Position numbers and translations under genes: made by a program. DNA of 64,000 bases from Burkholderiales bacterium. GTDB taxonomy: Bacteria > Pseudomonadota > Gammaproteobacteria > Burkholderiales > Ga0077523. The notes under the pieces were generated by a model that searched no databases, had not been told where the DNA came from, and was given only the letters and a program-made list of their open reading frames with translations. Where the stretch lies: contig JAIESW010000028.1 of the NCBI GenBank assembly GCA_019745565.1, positions 1 to 64,000 of the forward strand, in the 5' to 3' direction. Positions 2,999 to 37,063 of the stretch are shown in pieces (within the stretch, counting starts at the first letter, position 1; each line of letters begins with the position of its first letter).

Positions 2999-4285
2999 TC
3001 AGGCCGCTGCGCGGTAGATTGGCACCACGTACGGGCCCTCGGGGATCACGGCCACGTCCGGATCGCCGGTGCTGCGCACGGCTGCCTCGATGGCGGCCTC
3101 CACCGACGGCACGTTGTTGACGCCGGTGAGCGCGCGGTCCTCGGGCGTGAGGCCGCCGGCATAGAGATGCACGGCGCCCACCTGCATCGGCTTCACCTGC
3201 ATCTGGGTCTGCCACTCGTCGACGTCGGCGTAACGCTTGGCGCTGATGTTCTTCAGGAATCCTTCTGCCCCCAGCGCGATCAGCCGACGCTGGGCTTCGA
3301 CGAACTCCTCCGAGCCCATGCCTTCGGAGCATTCGGAGGCGATCACCAGGTTGCCTCCGGGTTCGAGGATGTCCATCGGCGCCACCATGCCCTTGACCGT
3401 CTGGTAGTAGGTCTTGTCCAACGGATAGCCCGCCGCGCTGGTCACCACTGTCTTGAAGCGCCGCGGCACCGCGACCTGGGCATAGCCCCGGATGAACTCG
3501 ACGGCAGCGAGATGGCTTTCGACCACGTCGCCGTAGTTCACGAACGAGAGGCGGCGATGCTCGTCGATCACGGTGTTCACCGCCAAGACCGGCCCCAGCA
3601 TGCGCACGATCGCCAGTTGTTCCCGATGCAGCGGATTGCCTTCCAGGATGCAGTTCTCGGCCTTCGGGTCGGCCATGAAGCGGTGGCTGTGGAACGTGGT
3701 GATGGTCTCCTGGTGCGCGATGCCGGGTGCGATCACCTTGCGTCCACCGGAATAGCCGGCCATGAAATGCGGCTCCACCAGGCCGGTGACGATCTTCACG
3801 TCGGCTTCCACGAACCGACGATCGAGCTTCACCGCCGTGCCATGGGGCGTGCGACCCAGATCCACGTGATCGGCGTCGTTGCGGGCGTAGTGGTTTTCGA
3901 CCCGCACGGTGGACAGGACCCAGGGATCGCCCACCAGTTCTTCGAGCTCGGCGCCGAGGTTGGGGCGATGCAGACCGGTCGCGACGAGGACGGTGATGTT
4001 CGACCGGTCGATGCCGGCGACCAGCAACTGGCGGACGATGGGGCCGAGGAGGAGGCCGTTGGGGACCGGGCGCGTGATGTCGCAGATCAGGATGCAGGCG
4101 CTGCGCCTGCCCCGCGCCTCGTCCTGGAGTGCCCTGGCCTGCACCGGTGTCGACAGCGCCTCGTCGATCGCCTCGGCGGGGGAGGGGAGGACCGGCATCT
4201 CCGGCTTGCGGATGACGCTCGCCCGGACGCCGGCCGGCAGTCCGACACTCAACGTGCCGCGACCATAATTCAGTTCTATTTTCAT
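2999..4285 (-). CDS. larA: LarA-family nickel-pincer enzyme (lactate racemase-like)
   Basis: This is a homologue of lactate racemase LarA and 2-hydroxyacid racemases/epimerases, which use a nickel pincer nucleotide (NPN) cofactor tethered to lysine. The protein has 428 residues, the usual family length. The key residues fall where expected from L. plantarum LarA: His106 in ATGLHRP, His173 in EPHFMAG, cofactor-binding Lys183 in SGGRKVIAPG and His199/His201 in TFHSHRF. No cofactor synthesis genes (larB, larC, larE) are in the window, so NPN would have to be made from elsewhere. The substrate is unknown, since many LarA relatives act on 2-hydroxyacids or sugar acids other than lactate. It starts at ATG 4285 and appears to be a solo gene followed by the hairpin at 2938-2963. 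Confidence 0.85.
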   Translation of the reverse strand: MKIELNYGRGTLSVGLPAGVRASVIRKPEMPVLPSPAEAIDEALSTPVQARALQDEARGRRSACILICDITRPVPNGLLLGPIVRQLLVAGIDRSNITVLVATGLHRPNLGAELEELVGDPWVLSTVRVENHYARNDADHVDLGRTPHGTAVKLDRRFVEADVKIVTGLVEPHFMAGYSGGRKVIAPGIAHQETITTFHSHRFMADPKAENCILEGNPLHREQLAIVRMLGPVLAVNTVIDEHRRLSFVNYGDVVESHLAAVEFIRGYAQVAVPRRFKTVVTSAAGYPLDKTYYQTVKGMVAPMDILEPGGNLVIASECSEGMGSEEFVEAQRRLIALGAEGFLKNISAKRYADVDEWQTQMQVKPMQVGAVHLYAGGLTPEDRALTGVNNVPSVEAAIEAAVRSTGDPDVAVIPEGPYVVPIYRAAA

Positions 4286-4561
4286 GGGGTTGCCTGCTCA
4301 GCTACGGCTCGGTGGCTGGACTATAGCACCGCTCTCGCGGCCTGGAACGCCGATCGGACCACGACGTCCATCGCGTGCTTGCAAGAGATTTCACTTAAAG
4401 TACTTGCAATAAGCCAAGGAATCCATTGCAATCCCGCCCGTGCATCCTATCTGTGCCGCAAAACAAGAACGTTGAAGCCGCTCCTGTTGCACGGCGGTTC
4501 GCCTGAGGCGGACCAGGGGTTCCTGTCCCCCGGGAAAGTCGCAGGCGCTGTGCCGGAAGGC

Positions 4562-5890
4562 ATGGACACGGTCCCGGACTTCCGGGGGGAAACCTATTCG
4601 GAAGCGACGCCACTGCGGCGCCGCAGCCTGCCGGCCGATCTGCCCGACCGCCTGGTTACCCTAGACCGCGTGGGTGAGGCGCTGACCACGGCGCATCGGG
4701 CCCGGCACGACCTGGTGCTGCTGCTGATCGGGATCGACGATCATGCGAGCGGTGCCGGACGGCTGCGGCGCAGCGACGCCGATGCACTCGGTCTCCAACT
4801 CGAGGATCGGCTGCTGGGTGCGGCGATCGGCGCGGGCAGCGTCGCCCGTGTCTCGACCAATTCCTACGCGGTGATGGTGTCGGGTGCCGCTGCGTCGAGT
4901 GCAGCGCGGCGCTGCGCCAATCGCATGCTCAACGTGCTCTCGCGGCCGTTCTATATCGGCAACGCTGCGGTGCGCGTAAATGCCGCCATCGGGGCGAGCA
5001 CGTTTCCGCGCGATGCGACGCGACCGGACGAACTGCTGCGGCGTGCCGAGCAGGCGCTGACCGCGGCGCGCCGCGCCGGGCCGAATGCGTTCCGGTCGGT
5101 GCAGACCCGCTCCCGCAACGGGACCGACGCTCAGACCCTGTTGCGTGCCGGATTGCGTAGCGCTGTCTCCCGCAACGAACTGGAACTGCACTATCAGGCC
5201 AAGTTCGACCTCGCCGATGGCCGCGTCACCGGCGCCGAAGCGCTGCTGCGCTGGCGGCATCCGGACCTGGGACTGGTGGAACCGGCCCGGTTCATCCCGC
5301 TCGCCGAAGCCGACGGGCACATCGTGCCGATCGGCGAATGGGTGCTGCGCGCGGCCTGCGAACAGGTGCGCCGCTGGCGCGATCGCGGGATCGAGATGCA
5401 GGTGGGCGTGAACGTGTCCGCCCGCCAGTTCCGCGAGGCCAACCTGGCGCAGCGTATCCTCGACATCCTGCAGGCCCATCGCGTGGACCCGTCGTGGATC
5501 GAACTCGAACTCACCGAAAGCGCGGTGATGGACGATGCCGACGGCGTGGTCGCCGCGCTCGAGCGATTGAAGGCGAGCGGCGTCCGGCTTGCCATCGACG
5601 ATTTCGGTACCGGCTATGCGAGCTTGAGCTACCTCACGCGCCTGCCGGTCCACGTGGTGAAGATCGACCAGTCGTTCGTGCGCGGCCTCGCGAACCGCTC
5701 CGACAATGGGGCGATCGTGCTCGCCATCGTGCGTCTCGCGCGCAACCTCGGCATGGACGTCATCGCCGAAGGGGTCGAGACCGGCCGCGATCTCGCGGCG
5801 CTGCGCGCCTGGGGCTGCGACCGGGCGCAGGGCTATTTCTTCGGCAAGCCGCTGCGCGCCGACGAGTTCACGGCGCGGTTCGGGATCTAG
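4562..5890 (+). CDS. EAL-domain c-di-GMP phosphodiesterase with degenerate GGDEF domain
   Basis: A 442-residue cytoplasmic protein with an N-terminal diguanylate-cyclase-like domain (about 28-178) and a C-terminal EAL domain (about 190-440). The GGDEF signature is replaced by STNSY at about 98-102, so the first domain cannot make c-di-GMP by the usual mechanism; it may bind GTP or serve as a dimerisation module. The EAL domain retains its catalytic set: EALLRW (Glu226), Asn284 in NVSARQF, Glu316 in ELELTES, Asp346-Asp347 in DDFGTG, Lys367 in KIDQSFV and Glu403 in AEGVET. It should therefore hydrolyse c-di-GMP. No membrane or PAS sensor is present. The ATG at 4562 is chosen because the long upstream open frame is antisense to larA. 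The gene is monocistronic, with about 276 bases of untranslated sequence before it. Confidence 0.9.
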   Translation: MDTVPDFRGETYSEATPLRRRSLPADLPDRLVTLDRVGEALTTAHRARHDLVLLLIGIDDHASGAGRLRRSDADALGLQLEDRLLGAAIGAGSVARVSTNSYAVMVSGAAASSAARRCANRMLNVLSRPFYIGNAAVRVNAAIGASTFPRDATRPDELLRRAEQALTAARRAGPNAFRSVQTRSRNGTDAQTLLRAGLRSAVSRNELELHYQAKFDLADGRVTGAEALLRWRHPDLGLVEPARFIPLAEADGHIVPIGEWVLRAACEQVRRWRDRGIEMQVGVNVSARQFREANLAQRILDILQAHRVDPSWIELELTESAVMDDADGVVAALERLKASGVRLAIDDFGTGYASLSYLTRLPVHVVKIDQSFVRGLANRSDNGAIVLAIVRLARNLGMDVIAEGVETGRDLAALRAWGCDRAQGYFFGKPLRADEFTARFGI

Positions 5891-5916
5891 GCTCCTTGCG
5901 CGTGGGGCCGCCAGGC

Positions 5917-5931
5917 GCACCAAAGCGGCGC
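5917..5931 (+). promoter_or_regulatory. NtrC-like enhancer site (candidate)
   Basis: GCACCAAAGCGGCGC matches the palindromic NtrC consensus GCACTAAATTGGTGC at 11 of 15 positions. It lies about 110 bases upstream of the sigma-54 element at 6042-6055, a normal distance for an enhancer-binding activator. The match is imperfect in the right half-site, and only one site was found. Confidence 0.45.
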
Positions 5932-6041
5932 AGCAGCGCATCGCGGCGCACGACGGCGAGGCGTGCCCTGCCGGACCCGGTTCCCGCTCGGGCATCGTGA
6001 ACCGAGCAATGGCGCGGCTTTGCGGGCCGCTGCCGGCGCTG

Positions 6042-6055
6042 GGCACGTCGCTTGC
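6042..6055 (+). promoter_or_regulatory. Sigma-54 (RpoN) promoter for the biuret/carboxybiuret hydrolase operon
   Basis: GGCACG-tcgc-TTGC is a near-perfect -24/-12 element: the GG and GC dinucleotides are separated by exactly 10 bases and both flanking hexamer cores fit the consensus GGCACG-N4-TTGC. The base before GG is G rather than T. Transcription would start near 6067, leaving a leader of about 100 bases before the ATG at 6170. Confidence 0.75.
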
Positions 6056-6169
6056 GCTCTCGCGGGCGAACCAGCCGCCTCGAGGTCGACAGCCCGGTGC
6101 CACGATGCCTCGCCCGCCTCCCGGGGCGCGCTTGAACCCGCCTTCCGCAGTCTTCCAGGAGCCGCCATC

Positions 6170-6847
6170 ATGATGCACACCGTCGCCGCGCGCCCGTTCG
6201 CCTATCGCTTCGATCCCGCCGTCACCGCGCTGGTGGTGATCGACATGCAACGCGACTTCATCGAGCCCGGCGGTTTCGGCGACGCGCTCGGCAACGACGT
6301 GAGTCTGCTCGAGGGCATCGTGCCGACCGTGCGCCGGCTGCTCGACGTCTGTCGCGCTTCGGGTATGCTCATCGTTCACACCCGCGAAGCCCATCGTGCC
6401 GACCTGTCCGACTGTCCTCCCTCCAAGCGCAACCGCGGCGACGCGAAGCTGCGCATCGGCGACCACGGCCCCATGGGGCGCATTCTCGTCGCCGGTGAGC
6501 CGGGCAACGACATCCTGCCCGAGGTGGCACCGCTCGAAGGGGAGATCGTGATCGACAAGCCCGGCAAGGGTGCGTTCTACGCCACCGCGCTCGGCGACAT
6601 CCTGCGGCTGAAGGGCATTACCCATCTGCTGTTCGCGGGCGTGACCACCGAGGTCTGCGTGCAGACCACCATGCGCGAGGCGAACGACCGCGGTTACGAA
6701 TGCCTGGTGGTGGAGGACGCCACCGAGAGCTACTTTCCGGAATTCAAGCGCGCGGCCCTGGAGATGATCCGTGCGCAGGGCGCCATCGTCGGCTGGAGTG
6801 CCACCTGCGACGAACTGGCGACGGCGTTGAACGGCGTGCACCGATGA
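6170..6847 (+). CDS. Isochorismatase-family cysteine hydrolase (biuret hydrolase-like)
   Basis: A 225-residue cysteine hydrolase of the isochorismatase fold, cleaving a C-N amide bond. The catalytic triad is visible: Asp25 in VVIDMQRDF, a Lys in IDKPGKGAF (130 or 133) and Cys163 in [11 protein letters not shown] with the preceding cis-peptide region. Relatives include biuret amidohydrolase (BiuH), ureidoacrylate hydrolase RutB and N-carbamoylsarcosine amidase. BiuH is favoured because the next three genes belong to the AtzEGH group of 1-carboxybiuret metabolism. AGGAG (6157-6161) lies 8 bases before ATG 6170, deciding this start over the adjacent ATG at 6173. The stop overlaps the next start (ATGA), so it is the first gene of a tight operon driven by the sigma-54 element upstream. 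Confidence 0.85.
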
Positions 6848-7026
6848 CGCCGGAGGAGACGACCGCCTACGTCCAGGTTGCCGCCGGTGCCCAGGGCTTC
6901 GAGCTGAGCACCGAACAAGTCGCCCGAGTCGCTGCGGTGCTGGCACGCACCGTGGAGATGGCCGACCTTCTGATGGAGTTTGATCTGCCCGAGTCCGCCG
7001 AGCCGGCCCCCCAGTTCCGGCCATGA
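6844..7026 (+). CDS. atzG: AtzG-like small subunit (DUF4089)
   Basis: A 60-residue protein of the AtzG/HpxX type. In the structurally known AtzEG complex, AtzG is the small partner that binds and stabilises the amidase AtzE. It has a helical [20 protein letters not shown] segment followed by a helix through [20 protein letters not shown], the usual DUF4089 pattern. Both ends overlap neighbours by 4 bases (ATGA at 6844-6847 and at 7023-7026), so translation is coupled on both sides, consistent with stoichiometric complex formation with the downstream amidase. Confidence 0.85.
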
Positions 7027-8390
7027 GGGCCCTGGAGATCGTTGCGGCGATCCGCTCCGGCGGCGCGACGGCGACGTCGGTCGTCGAAGCGGCACTCGCG
7101 CGTATCGAGGCGCACAACGGAACGATCAACGCGTTCACGGCCGTGACGGTGGAGCGCGCGCGACGAGAGGCCGCGGCCATAGACGCGTTGAAAGCCCAAG
7201 GCAAGCCGCTGCCGCCATTGGCCGGCGTGCCCTACGCGGTGAAGAATCTGTTCGATGTCGAGGGTCTCGCGACACTCGCGGGCTCGCGTCTGCACGAGTC
7301 GCGGAGGCCGGCAACGCAAGACGCGATGCTCGTCCGGCGCCTGCGCGAAGCCGGCGCGATCCTGGTGGGCGCGCTCAACATGGACGCCTACGCCTATGGC
7401 TTCACCACCGAGAACACGGCATACGGTCCGACGCGCAACCCGCGCGATCCCGCGCGCAGCGCCGGCGGATCGTCGGGCGGATCGGGCGCGGCAGTGGCGG
7501 CGGGCATGGTGCCGCTCGCGCTCGCGTCCGACACCAACGGATCGATCCGCGTGCCGGCATCGCTGTGCGGCGTGTTCGGATTGAAGCCCACCTACGGCCG
7601 CCTGTCCCGTACCGGCAGCTTTCCGTTCGTGTACAGCCTCGATCACCTGGGGGCGATGGGCGCGACGACCGACGACGTCGCCGCCTGCTACGACGCGATG
7701 CAGGGACCCGATGCGACCGATCCGGCCTCCGCGCAGCGGCCGGTGGAACCGGTGCTGCAGGAATTGGTGCGGGGTGTCGACGGTCTCCGTGTGGCGCGAC
7801 TCGGCGGCTATTTCGACATCAACGCCGGTGAGGAAGCGCGCGCGGCCACCCGGCGGGTGGCCAATGCCTTCGAGGGGGCAAGGGAAGTGGAATTGCCCGA
7901 AGTGGAACGCGCCCGCGCAGCGGCGTTCGTCATCACGGCCGCCGAGGGCGGAACGCTGCACCGGAAGACCCTGCAGCAGCACTACGACGGTTTCGAGCCG
8001 CACAACCGCGACCGTTTCCTCGCGGGTGCGTTGACGCCCGGCACCTGGTACGTGAAGGCCCAGAAGGTCCGGGCCTGGTTCGCCCATCGGTGCAGCGAGA
8101 TCTTCGAACGGTTCGACGTGCTGATCGCGCCGGCCACACCGGTGGTGGCGCAACCGCTCGGTGCCGAGTGGCTGGAACTGAACGGCCGGAGCCTGCCGCT
8201 GCGTCCCAGCCTCGGCATGCTCACGCAGCCGATCTCCTGCATCGGCCTGCCGGTGATGACCGTTCCGGTCGCCGGCGTGAGTGCGCTGCCGATCGGCGTG
8301 CAACTGATCGCCGCACCCTGGCGGGAAGATCTCTGCCTGCGTGCGGCGGCACACCTCGAACGCGTGGGCGTGGCATCGTGTCCGGCATGA
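7023..8390 (+). CDS. atzE: AtzE-family amidase (1-carboxybiuret hydrolase type)
   Basis: An amidase-signature hydrolase of 455 residues. The Ser-cisSer-Lys triad is visible: Lys74 in [12 protein letters not shown], cis-Ser150 in [15 protein letters not shown] and nucleophile Ser174 in [11 protein letters not shown]. The AtzG partner before it and the AtzH-like protein after it place it in the AtzE/HpxY subgroup. AtzE hydrolyses 1-carboxybiuret in the cyanuric acid pathway, and HpxY is linked to oxalurate use. No cyanuric acid hydrolase (AtzD) or allophanate/dicarboxyurea hydrolase (AtzF) lies in the window, so the true substrate is open: carboxybiuret, oxalurate or a related ureide. Confidence 0.88.
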
Positions 8391-20238: not shown

Positions 20239-21147
20239 ATGGCCGACAGCTATCCCGCGCCGCGCCCGGTTTCAGCCAGCGTCATCCTGCTTCGCAGTCA
20301 CGAATTCGCGCGCAAAGCCGTCGCCGAGCAGGCGCGCGTCAAGGCGCAGCTCGAGGCGCTGGTGGCTTTCGCCACCATGCCGCTGGCCGCCGGCCGCTGG
20401 CTGGTGCTGGAGGCGCCTGAAGGACTCGCGATAGTCGTGCTGTCCGGTGCGGAGGCTGCCTTCGACACCGCGCGGCGGGCGCTGACCGCTGCAGCCGATC
20501 TGCCGCTGGCGGTGGGCGTCAATCTCGGTCCGGTGCTGGCCGAGGTCAACGAGCGCGGCGATGCCGTGCTGGCCGGCGATGGCATCGAAACCGCAATGGT
20601 GATCGCCGGCTTCGCCGCACCGGGCCATCTGCTGGTTTCGCGCAGCGTGCGTGACGCCGTGCTGGAGCAGGCGCCCGAGCGCGGCGAGGATCTGCGCTCG
20701 ATGGGAACGTTCACGGACACGCGCGTGCGCACACACGAGCTGTTCGCCCCGGACGAGCACGCTGCCCGGAGGCGCAGGCGCCGCCTGTTCGCGCTCGGTG
20801 CCGCCAGCTTCTGCGGCATTCTCGCGATCGGCTTCGCCGCGCGTCAGTCGCGCGAGCGGCGCATGGTTGCCGGTGCGCGTGCGTCGGTGGAATTCGCCAT
20901 CACGCCGCGCGGTGATGTGTACATCGACGGTGCGCCCAAGGGCCGCAGCCCGCCGCTCGAGCGCATCGCGATCTCTCCGGGTGCGCACACCATCGAGGTG
21001 CGCAACGGCCAGAACGCGCCGCTGCAGCTCAGGGTGAACCTGCAGCCGGGCGAAACCATGGCCATCCGCCACAGCTTCAACGCGCCGGCGCCGGCGCCCG
21101 CGAGTCCCGGGTTGATGCAGGACCTCAAGCGCAAGCTGGGCATGTGA
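20239..21147 (+). CDS. Membrane protein with cyclase-like N-terminal domain and PEGA domain
   Basis: A 302-residue protein in three parts. Residues about 10-170 resemble a class III adenylate/guanylate cyclase catalytic fold: GVNLGPVLAEVNERGDAVLA followed by GIETAMVIAGFAAPGHLLVS mirrors the cyclase GDAVNxAARL-APGxILVS region. The expected metal-binding aspartates and the catalytic Asn/Arg are not evident, so it is probably non-catalytic. A run of Arg (177-182) leads into one membrane segment (about 183-202). A periplasmic PEGA domain follows (about 217-280, VYIDGAPKGRSPPLERIAIS, then GAHTIEVRN). It is coupled to the next gene, a Ser/Thr kinase, by a one-base stop/start overlap (TGATG), so it probably works as its sensor or scaffold. 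Confidence 0.75.
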   Translation: MADSYPAPRPVSASVILLRSHEFARKAVAEQARVKAQLEALVAFATMPLAAGRWLVLEAPEGLAIVVLSGAEAAFDTARRALTAAADLPLAVGVNLGPVLAEVNERGDAVLAGDGIETAMVIAGFAAPGHLLVSRSVRDAVLEQAPERGEDLRSMGTFTDTRVRTHELFAPDEHAARRRRRRLFALGAASFCGILAIGFAARQSRERRMVAGARASVEFAITPRGDVYIDGAPKGRSPPLERIAISPGAHTIEVRNGQNAPLQLRVNLQPGETMAIRHSFNAPAPAPASPGLMQDLKRKLGM

Positions 21148-22325
21148 TGATCGACGAGACTCCCGACCGCTTCGGGCGGTATCTGATCGATTCCGAACTG
21201 GGCCGCGGCGCCATGGGTGTGGTCTATCGCGCCCTCGACCCGGTGCTGGACCGCACCGTCGCGGTGAAGACGATTGCGCTGTCGGCCGATCCCGAGGAGC
21301 GCGAACGTTCGGAGGCGCGCTTCTACCAGGAAGCCAAGGCCGCCGGCGGTCTCAACCATCCGGCCATCATCACGATCCACGACGTGGGCCGTGAGGGCGG
21401 CATGGTCTGGATGGCGATGGAACTGCTGGAAGGTACCGAGCTGCGCCATCTGCTGGCGAACGAACGCATGGGCGTGGAACGTGCGCTCGACATCGTCGGT
21501 CAGGTGGCCGATGCGCTCGGCTATGCCCACGAGCGCGGGGTGGTTCATCGGGACATCAAGCCCGCGAACATCATGATCCTGCGCGGCGGCCAGGTGAAGA
21601 TCATGGACTTCGGCATCGCGCGTCTCTGGATCTCCGACGTGAAGACCCAGACCGGCATGCTGCTCGGGTCGCCCAAGTACATGTCGCCGGAACAGGCGAT
21701 GGGCAGCGGTGTCGACCAGCGGTCCGACATCTTCTCGCTCGGCGTGGTGCTGTACGAGATGCTTACCGGCAATCCGCCGTTCGCCGGCAAGGACGTGACG
21801 CAGCTTCTGTACAACGTCTCCACGGTGATGCCGCCGCCGCCGAGCACCATCAACCGGGCGGTGCCCGAGATGGTGGATCTGGTGATCGCCAAGGCGCTCG
21901 CCAAGAACCCGGCCGATCGCTACCAGAGCGCCGCCGAGATGCAGGCCGACCTGCTCGCCTGCCGCTACGAGGTCGCGCAGCAGGCCGCGTCGGACGACGC
22001 CACGGTCCGCCTCGATGCCGCGACGCCCGGCGCCGACGGCAGCCGGACCCTGTCGGGCGGCAGTACGCTCGTGGGCACCGATGCCGCGGTGCGCCTGCCG
22101 GTGTCGCGGCGGTTCGATGCCGGCGTGGCGCTCGCGTACCTGGAGCACCTCGCGGAGCGCAGCGGCGTCGACGACGGCAGCGCGACCCTCGCGGCACGGG
22201 CAGCGACGCTGGCGCGCACCACGCGCAAGCGCATCGACCGGGTGCAGCGCAAGACCGACGCGCTGATGCTGACCGGCGTCGTCGCGGTGGCGTGTGTCAT
22301 TGCGTTCCTCATCGTGTATCTGTGA
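21147..22325 (+). CDS. Membrane-anchored Ser/Thr protein kinase (Hanks type)
   Basis: A 392-residue eukaryotic-like kinase. The catalytic domain spans about 10-270 with glycine loop LGRGAMGVVY, Lys41 (VAVKTI), HRDIKPANI (catalytic Asp136), DFG at 154-156 and the activation-segment end GSPKYMSPEQA. All catalytic residues are intact. A Thr/Ser/Arg-rich linker follows, then one C-terminal membrane segment (about 370-391) with almost nothing outside, making it tail-anchored. The ATG at 21147 shares its A with the upstream stop; a GTG at 21144 would add one residue. Coupling to the PEGA protein suggests a shared signalling module. The envelope genes that follow on the same strand are plausible but unproven targets. 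Confidence 0.9.
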   Translation: MIDETPDRFGRYLIDSELGRGAMGVVYRALDPVLDRTVAVKTIALSADPEERERSEARFYQEAKAAGGLNHPAIITIHDVGREGGMVWMAMELLEGTELRHLLANERMGVERALDIVGQVADALGYAHERGVVHRDIKPANIMILRGGQVKIMDFGIARLWISDVKTQTGMLLGSPKYMSPEQAMGSGVDQRSDIFSLGVVLYEMLTGNPPFAGKDVTQLLYNVSTVMPPPPSTINRAVPEMVDLVIAKALAKNPADRYQSAAEMQADLLACRYEVAQQAASDDATVRLDAATPGADGSRTLSGGSTLVGTDAAVRLPVSRRFDAGVALAYLEHLAERSGVDDGSATLAARAATLARTTRKRIDRVQRKTDALMLTGVVAVACVIAFLIVYL

Positions 22326-33264: not shown

Positions 33265-35082
<1,818 letters not shown>

Positions 35083-35086
35083 TCGC

Positions 35087-37003
35087 ATGCCGACCCTACC
35101 GGCCCGCATCGGCAAGTACGATATCCGCGCACAGCTGGGCGCGGGGGCCATGGCGGTCGTGTACCAGGCCTACGATCCGGTGATCGAGCGCACGCTCGCG
35201 ATCAAGGTGGTGGACAAGGCGCGTCTGGACGAGAGCGAGTCCGACACCATCCTGGAGCGCTTCCGCGTCGAGGCGCGCGCGGCCGGGCGGCTGCAGCACC
35301 AGAACATCGTGGCGGTGTACGACTTCGGCGAGGAGGGCAACCTCGTCTACCTCGTGATGGAATGCGTGTTCGGCCGGCCGCTGACGGCCTACCTGCAAGC
35401 GGAGGATTTCCGCGGCGAACCGGACAAGGTCTGCGAAATCCTCCTGCAGATCCTGTCGGCGCTGCAGTATTCGCACGCGCAGGGCGTGGTCCATCGCGAC
35501 ATCAAGCCCGCCAACATCATGGTGACGCGCGAAGGGTCGATCAAGATCGCCGACTTCGGCGTCGCGCGCATCGAATCGTCCCAGCTCACCCAGACCGGTG
35601 ACCTGATCGGGACGCCTTCCTACATGTCGCCCGAGCAGTTCGCTGGCGAAACCGCAGACGCGCGCACCGACCTGTACGCGACTTCCGTGGTGTTCTACGA
35701 GCTGCTCACGCGCAAGCGGCCGTTCGAAGGCAGCAACAACGCCGTGATCATGCACCGCGTGTTCACCGAGACGCCCACCGCGCCGTCGATCGTCAATCCG
35801 CTGCTGTCGGACGCGCTCGATGCCGTCGTGCTGCGCGGCATGGCCAAGGACGCGCAGGATCGCTACCGCAGTGCCCATGACTTCGCCCTCGCGATCCGCG
35901 AAGCCATGGGCATCGGCCTGCTGAAGACGGCGGCGCCCGTGGTGGACAACAGGCCGAAGATCGCCCCGAACCTGCTGAAGGCGGTGCGCAGTGCGCCGGC
36001 AGCGCCGGCGACGAACGGCGAGGCCGCCCGCGCCACGCCCGGCACGGCCAACCAGCGGGCGACGGCGCTGGCCCCGCTCAAGGCCACGCCGACGGCCGCG
36101 CCCGACAAGCCCGTGATCCTCTTCGTCGACGACGAGGCGCGCATCCTCACGGCGCTGCACGCGTTGTTCCGCCAGAAGTACACGGTGTTCACCTCCGACG
36201 ATCCGCGCCAGGCGGTGGAGATGGTGAAGCGACTGCAGGTGCACGTGCTGGTGTCCGATCAGCGCATGCCCAACATGCTCGGCGTGGAACTCCTGCGCGA
36301 GGTGAAGGAGATCTCGCCCAAGACCGTGCGCATCCTGCTGACCGGCTATTCGGATCTCGCATCCATCGTCGGGTCCATCAACGAGGGCGAGGTCTGGCGC
36401 TTCATCAACAAGCCCTGGGACACCCAGGACGTGCAGCGCATCGTGGCCGAGGCGGTCGCGATCGCCACCGAGATGCCGGAAGTCCCGGCCTGGCAGATGC
36501 CGGCCAAGCCGCGCTTCGAGGAATCGATCCTGTCGCTCGATCCGGGCAACATCGTGACCCCCGGACTGCTGGGCCAGTACGGCGAGCGCCACTGGGTCGC
36601 GCAGGCGCGCGATCTCGACGAGGCCATCACCCTCCTGCAGGAGCGCGAGGTGGCGGTGCTGGTGGCCGACATGGACAGCGATCCCCAGGAAGTGAAGTCG
36701 CTCCTGCACCTGCTGAAGCGCGACTATCCGCAGATCCTCACCATCGCGGTCACCCAGACCATCGATGCCGAGATGCTGATCGAGCTCATCAACGAAGCTC
36801 AGGTGCACCGCTTCATCAGCAAGCCGGTGAATGCAGCGCTGCTCCAGCAGCACGTCGACGCGGCCATGAACCGTTATCACACCTACAAGGCCACGCCGGC
36901 GCTCGCGATGGCGCAGAAGGTCGAGGAGCAGAAGGCGGCGCCGGTGCTGAAAAGCGGCCTGATGGACCGCCTGCGCGCCATCGCTCGCTTCGGCGCCCGC
37001 TGA
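35087..37003 (+). CDS. Ser/Thr kinase fused to two receiver domains
   Basis: A 638-residue fusion. Residues about 10-275 form a Hanks-type kinase with glycine loop LGAGAMAVVY, Lys40, HRDIKPANI (catalytic Asp138), DFG at 156-158 and the GTPSYMSPEQ segment. An Ala/Pro/Thr-rich linker follows. Receiver 1 (about 340-465) is a complete REC domain: FVDDEARIL acidic pocket, phospho-acceptor Asp391 in VSDQRMPN, LLTGYSD and FINKPWD. Receiver 2 (about 480-612) is divergent. It lacks the paired acidic residues (SLDPGNIV) but keeps a possible acceptor Asp528 (LVADMDSD) and the FISKPVN lysine. There is no DNA-binding or other output domain, so phosphorylation by the adjacent histidine kinase probably controls the Ser/Thr kinase. 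Confidence 0.9.
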   Translation: MPTLPARIGKYDIRAQLGAGAMAVVYQAYDPVIERTLAIKVVDKARLDESESDTILERFRVEARAAGRLQHQNIVAVYDFGEEGNLVYLVMECVFGRPLTAYLQAEDFRGEPDKVCEILLQILSALQYSHAQGVVHRDIKPANIMVTREGSIKIADFGVARIESSQLTQTGDLIGTPSYMSPEQFAGETADARTDLYATSVVFYELLTRKRPFEGSNNAVIMHRVFTETPTAPSIVNPLLSDALDAVVLRGMAKDAQDRYRSAHDFALAIREAMGIGLLKTAAPVVDNRPKIAPNLLKAVRSAPAAPATNGEAARATPGTANQRATALAPLKATPTAAPDKPVILFVDDEARILTALHALFRQKYTVFTSDDPRQAVEMVKRLQVHVLVSDQRMPNMLGVELLREVKEISPKTVRILLTGYSDLASIVGSINEGEVWRFINKPWDTQDVQRIVAEAVAIATEMPEVPAWQMPAKPRFEESILSLDPGNIVTPGLLGQYGERHWVAQARDLDEAITLLQEREVAVLVADMDSDPQEVKSLLHLLKRDYPQILTIAVTQTIDAEMLIELINEAQVHRFISKPVNAALLQQHVDAAMNRYHTYKATPALAMAQKVEEQKAAPVLKSGLMDRLRAIARFGAR

Positions 37004-37021: not shown

Positions 37022-37063
37022 TTGATCTGCATCAAGGGGCTCGGAAGGACTAGACTCTAGCAT
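37022..37063 (+). promoter_or_regulatory. Fnr box and -10 element upstream of ccoI
   Basis: TTGAT-ctgc-ATCAA (37022-37035) is a perfect Fnr/Anr palindrome. TAGCAT (37058-37063) begins 22 bases after the box, giving the class II geometry with the box centred near -41.5 and a start near 37070, 54 bases upstream of ccoI. Confidence 0.8.

Follow-up and report, generated by a model that had tools for sequence, protein, structure and literature searches.

The window analyzed here, a 64,000-nucleotide stretch of DNA from a Burkholderiales bacterium, contains two adjacent genes on the forward strand that encode a membrane sensor histidine kinase (HK) and a Ser/Thr kinase carrying two receiver domains. 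The stop codon of the upstream HK gene (33265-35082, 605 amino acids) is separated by 4 bases from the ATG of the fusion gene (35087-37003, 638 amino acids), whose assignment is based on its open reading frame, Pfam matches and 66 distinct homologues with the same architecture. An earlier note, made from the sequence alone, had described the upstream protein as a complete membrane HK, and Pfam confirmed its DAHL, HisKA and HATPase_c domains. It consists of a first transmembrane segment (TM1, residues ~3-24), a periplasmic DAHL domain (30-262), a second transmembrane segment (TM2, ~261-283), a HisKA domain with His347 and a HATPase_c domain (488-595), the transmembrane segments being read off the sequence. 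His347 and the residues of the N-box and G-box, which are the hallmarks of a sensor HK, are invariant in 63/63 homologues.

The N-terminal half of the fusion protein is a Hanks kinase domain (residues 9-275; 35111-35911, forward strand), matched by Pfam Pkinase over residues 11-234 (E = 3.5e-50). All residues that define a Hanks-type Ser/Thr kinase are present, namely the catalytic Lys40, Glu62 of helix α-C, Asp138 of the HRD motif, Asn143 and Asp156 of the DFG motif (156-158), with Thr168 and Thr176 in the activation loop. The intact kinase proposed in the earlier note was thereby confirmed, and these five residues are intact in 64 of the 65 aligned homologues. The single catalytically degraded copy is an apparent pseudokinase, and its weak kinase score points to locus L202. 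In this locus (3937-7368), the kinase has seemingly lost its catalytic residues, both receivers remain and the open frame runs into the HK gene. The kinase domain is followed by a poorly conserved Ala/Pro-rich linker (residues 282-338; 35930-36100, forward strand), which is predicted to be disordered (pLDDT <50 throughout).

Pfam Response_reg matches the fusion protein in two stretches, the better of which covers residues 344-452. Both receivers, with Asp391 and Asp528, lie where the earlier note had placed them. REC1 (residues 343-458; 36113-36460, forward strand) has the acidic pair (Asp348 and Asp349), phospho-acceptor Asp391, Thr419 and Lys442 of an intact receiver, and none of the five varies among the 66 fused and 15 stand-alone proteins compared. 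REC2 (residues 480-602; 36524-36892, forward strand) gives a weak Pfam match, and still matches Response_reg when searched by itself (E = 1.2e-7). In an AlphaFold2 model of the fusion protein, built from 6 sequences (mean pLDDT 72, pTM 0.43), REC2 possesses all five β/α units of the receiver topology; Asp528 ends strand 3, Thr556 ends strand 4 and Lys579 follows strand 5. The model has no defined kinase-receiver contact, in keeping with its low pTM. No DNA-binding or other output domain was detected by Pfam in the fusion protein, in agreement with the earlier claim that the receivers carry no such output of their own.

REC2 has the receiver fold and is partly degenerate in the residues for phosphotransfer, and on its sequence pattern it is a conserved pseudo-receiver. 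The earlier statement that it lacks the acidic pair holds for the second acid, which is replaced by Pro486, but not for the first, Asp485, which is kept; Asp528, Thr556 and Lys579 are also present. Position 486 is Asp in none of the 66 fused proteins, while Asp528 is invariant in all 66, Thr556 is Thr or Ser in 65/66 and Lys579 is Lys or Arg in 66/66. Of 32 stand-alone relatives, 22 have Glu and 7 have Asp at the position of Asp528. REC2 thus offers a clean case of a pseudo-receiver whose phospho-site is always Asp in the fused branch and mostly Glu in the stand-alone one. Helix α1 of a receiver is where histidine kinases dock, and its column entropy is 0.89 bits in REC1 versus 2.40 in REC2; the best-conserved elements of REC2 are α4, β5 and the β5-α5 loop. 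Because α1 is conserved in REC1 and has drifted in REC2, where α4-β5 is kept, we infer that phosphorylation is directed at REC1, and that REC2 no longer docks an HK but retains the face with which receivers dimerize or pass on their output. A role of REC2 as an allosteric or dimerization module would fit this conservation pattern. The HK-REC docking helices vary hardly at all, so that they yield little covariation signal. The possibility that REC2 is a decaying passenger was rejected on the basis of the invariant Asp528 (66/66) and the conserved α4-β5 region.

The pairing of HK and fusion was followed across genomes. The earlier note had named rare adjacency among homologues as a finding that would count against its proposed conversion of a His-Asp signal into Ser/Thr phosphorylation, and the reverse was observed: a DAHL-containing HK lies directly upstream in 63/64 fused homologues with readable upstream DNA, the exception (L203) being a broken copy with two stops. 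The HK stop and the kinase start overlap or are at most 25 nt apart in 53/63 loci, a 4-base overlap being the commonest arrangement. A sample of 60 related genomes was searched with the whole protein and with an HK profile. Of the 11 genomes sampled from the genus besides this one, 10 have a homologue of the whole protein, in one case truncated by a contig end, and homologues also occur in 8 further families of the order. With 399 genomes sampled from the order, 66 distinct fused proteins were collected in all. Betaproteobacterium GR16-43 (L044) and a genome of the Gallionellaceae (L042) are among the named carriers. Among the 60 genomes, the HK profile detected the HK in 18 of 19 fusion-bearing genomes and in 0 of the 41 others, and the only fusion genome lacking it (G004) has a copy cut by a contig end. 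HK and fusion copy numbers are equal in each of these genomes, apart from the truncation in G004; G023 has two HKs and two fusions in tandem. Chance neighborhood was therefore ruled out by adjacency, locus context and genome-by-genome co-occurrence, and the fusion has the genetically linked cognate HK of a response regulator. The HK-fusion pairing is strongly supported, because the adjacency (63/64) and the matched presence and copy number are combined with intact catalytic residues, an invariant REC1 and a single fusion event. In one lineage, the whole HK-STK-REC-REC unit is tandemly duplicated (L037, L185-L189, L194, L199). The tandem copies form two diverged clades retained side by side, a natural setting in which to ask how paralogous pairs are insulated from each other.

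The surrounding genes, named by sequence similarity and reading, differ among lineages. Throughout the genus, the order PBP1c-MFS-HK-STK-ccoI-ccoN is fixed. In other families, livHMGF-like branched-chain amino acid ABC transporter genes closely precede the pair at many loci, in the same orientation (LivH-LivM-LivG-type genes immediately upstream of the HK in L030, L031, L035-L037, L180, L184, L192, L193 and others), and several have convergent hemF-purD-purH downstream. The linkage to Liv-type transporter genes is only a lead to a possible DAHL ligand. The cbb3 oxidase genes were considered as a general target and rejected, because ccoI and ccoN follow the pair in this genus only and other families have the Liv transporter upstream or other neighbors. 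Comparison of the locus contexts identified no target gene that stays next to the pair from one lineage to another. Between the kinase gene and the genes for a ccoI-like copper ATPase and cbb3 oxidase, the window contains a perfect FNR/Anr-type palindrome, TTGATCTGCATCAA (37022-37035), for which 0.01 chance matches are expected in the window. A second, separate Hanks kinase of 393 amino acids with a C-terminal membrane segment is encoded at 21144-22325, and the 302-residue protein just upstream of it appears by eye to have a nucleotide-cyclase-like domain and a PEGA-type tail.

In class-level (369 genomes) and phylum-level (349 genomes) samples, no full fusion turned up beyond the order at the thresholds applied, and none of the kinases outside L041-L044 from a contig scan had a REC1-like domain detectable by the profile employed. 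What occurs outside the order is a stand-alone REC1-REC2 protein of ~300-360 amino acids, found in many Gammaproteobacteria and nearly always with an HK beside it; one genome within the order (G059) also has a stand-alone REC-REC. In a tree of 98 REC-REC sequences, every fused protein falls in one clade (91/88), whose sister (100/90) is L264, a DAHL-HK with a stand-alone REC-REC lacking the kinase. The long branch of L264 (1.09) makes this placement good but not beyond doubt. Because the nearest relative is a DAHL-HK paired with a stand-alone REC-REC, the pairing of HK and receivers would predate the addition of the kinase. The simplest history is that an HK and a REC-REC protein came first, that the HK then became a DAHL-HK and that a Hanks kinase was fused once to the N-terminus of the receivers. 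With a traceable fusion event, the un-fused sister L264 provides a natural control. In another gammaproteobacterial lineage (L215, 6030-12651; the same as L267), genes for a Hanks kinase, a PP2C-like and an FHA-like protein, the latter two named by sequence reading, are situated directly upstream of an HK and a stand-alone REC-REC on one strand. This gene set is possibly an un-fused form of the kinase-receiver wiring.

The observed anatomy, intact active sites, adjacency, co-occurrence and one fusion onto an existing HK/REC-REC pair favor, on balance, a two-component system in which the Hanks Ser/Thr kinase is the response-regulator output. The ligand, phosphotransfer, sign of control, role of REC2 and substrates are the conjectural parts of the following scheme. 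The DAHL sensor would bind a periplasmic ligand, upon which the HK would autophosphorylate on His347 and the phosphoryl group would move to Asp391 of REC1. REC2 may be a constitutive partner with which phospho-REC1 dimerizes, within one molecule or between two, through the α4-β5-α5 face, and the two receivers together would alter the assembly of the tethered kinase. The kinase would then autophosphorylate its activation loop (Thr168/Thr176) and phosphorylate Ser/Thr substrates. That phosphorylation of Asp391 by the HK switches the Ser/Thr kinase is the most likely reading, with a slight preference for activation over release of inhibition, and the sensor signal probably ends in the switching of a protein kinase and not of genes. 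The more specific proposal, an order-specific and vertically kept converter of His-Asp into Ser/Thr signaling, in which a phospho-receiver and an obligate pseudo-receiver directly switch a Hanks kinase, has about an even chance of being correct.

Several observations stand against the kinase as output. Stand-alone REC-REC relatives without any kinase lie beside HKs, so the receivers may have an output of their own, acting by partner binding; in L202, the kinase active site appears degraded and the receivers are intact; and the AlphaFold2 model (pTM 0.43) shows no defined contact between kinase and receivers. CheY and DivK are phosphorylated receivers that bind a target protein. By analogy, phosphorylated REC1-REC2 might itself be the output and bind a target, which the fused kinase would then phosphorylate, the receivers aiming the kinase instead of switching it. 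The wide occurrence outside the order of stand-alone REC-REC beside an HK and with no output domain agrees with this, as do the suitability of the long disordered linker (282-338) for tethering and the retention of receivers in L202 after loss of kinase residues. However, lineages do not share a target gene next to the pair, and the kinase residues are retained in 64/65 homologues; this main rival is considered unlikely.

The signal might also flow in reverse, the Ser/Thr kinase tuning the two-component pair by phosphorylating either the HK or the receivers. Such phosphorylation is documented: Ser/Thr kinases of Gram-positive bacteria phosphorylate the unlinked response regulators RitR, RR06 and RegX3 (reviewed in PMC12189002). 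This arrangement would leave the system with no output, since the HK and receivers carry none and the operon contains no further conserved gene, and it is rather improbable. Alternatively, the receivers could be a phosphate sink or an HK-docking anchor that leaves the kinase unaffected, the fusion merely bringing the kinase to the membrane sensor. Nothing specific speaks for this beyond the length and lack of structure of the linker. The retention of both receivers in every fused homologue, and of Asp528 in 66/66 although the stand-alone relatives mostly have Glu, make it very improbable. Switching of the Hanks kinase by the phosphorylated receiver is thus the preferred explanation.

Bacterial His-Asp and Ser/Thr signaling are usually regarded as distinct systems that are linked by cross-talk. 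Here, the two are joined in one protein that many families of the order have retained next to one sensor and, if the converter proposal is true, a single membrane sensor acts through protein phosphorylation and not through transcription. In the searchable literature, no characterized receiver-controlled Hanks kinase was found, although the response-regulator output censuses of Galperin may list one. These surveys reportedly include rare proteins with a receiver and a Ser/Thr kinase, and the kinase-receiver architecture is therefore not wholly new. Yeast Rim15, which a paper on pseudo-receivers cites (PMC12632262), is a Greatwall-like Ser/Thr kinase with a C-terminal receiver. It resembles the fusion in this combination, but it is eukaryotic, has a single receiver-like domain and no dedicated neighboring HK, and gives no sign of a common architectural origin. 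The best solved relatives of the kinase domain are PknB (1mru, E = 5.5e-78) and StkP (9ru3), and none of the best 60 PDB matches spans a kinase and a receiver. The fusion has the kinase domain in common with these Hanks kinases but differs in having two receivers as its C-terminal half and neither the transmembrane helix nor the sensor repeats of a PASTA kinase, the NCBIfam PknB_PASTA score being 317 bits against a cut-off of 450.

In Pseudomonas aeruginosa PA3346, a receiver phosphorylated by an HK controls Ser/Thr phosphorylation chemistry (PMC12189002), as is proposed for the fusion. PA3346 is, however, a phosphatase with an N-terminal receiver, whereas the fusion has an N-terminal Hanks kinase and two C-terminal receivers. 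A REC-PP2C-STYK protein of Campylobacterota, predicted to be under the control of an HK and described as acting on a STAS protein (PMC9239204), likewise joins a receiver to a Ser/Thr kinase in this prediction, but with another kinase/phosphatase arrangement and no known cognate HK. The stand-alone REC1-REC2 proteins of other Gammaproteobacteria lack the kinase and usually have Glu at the REC2 phospho-site (22/32), but they share with the fusion a homologous receiver tandem, the same REC1 signature and an HK as neighbor.
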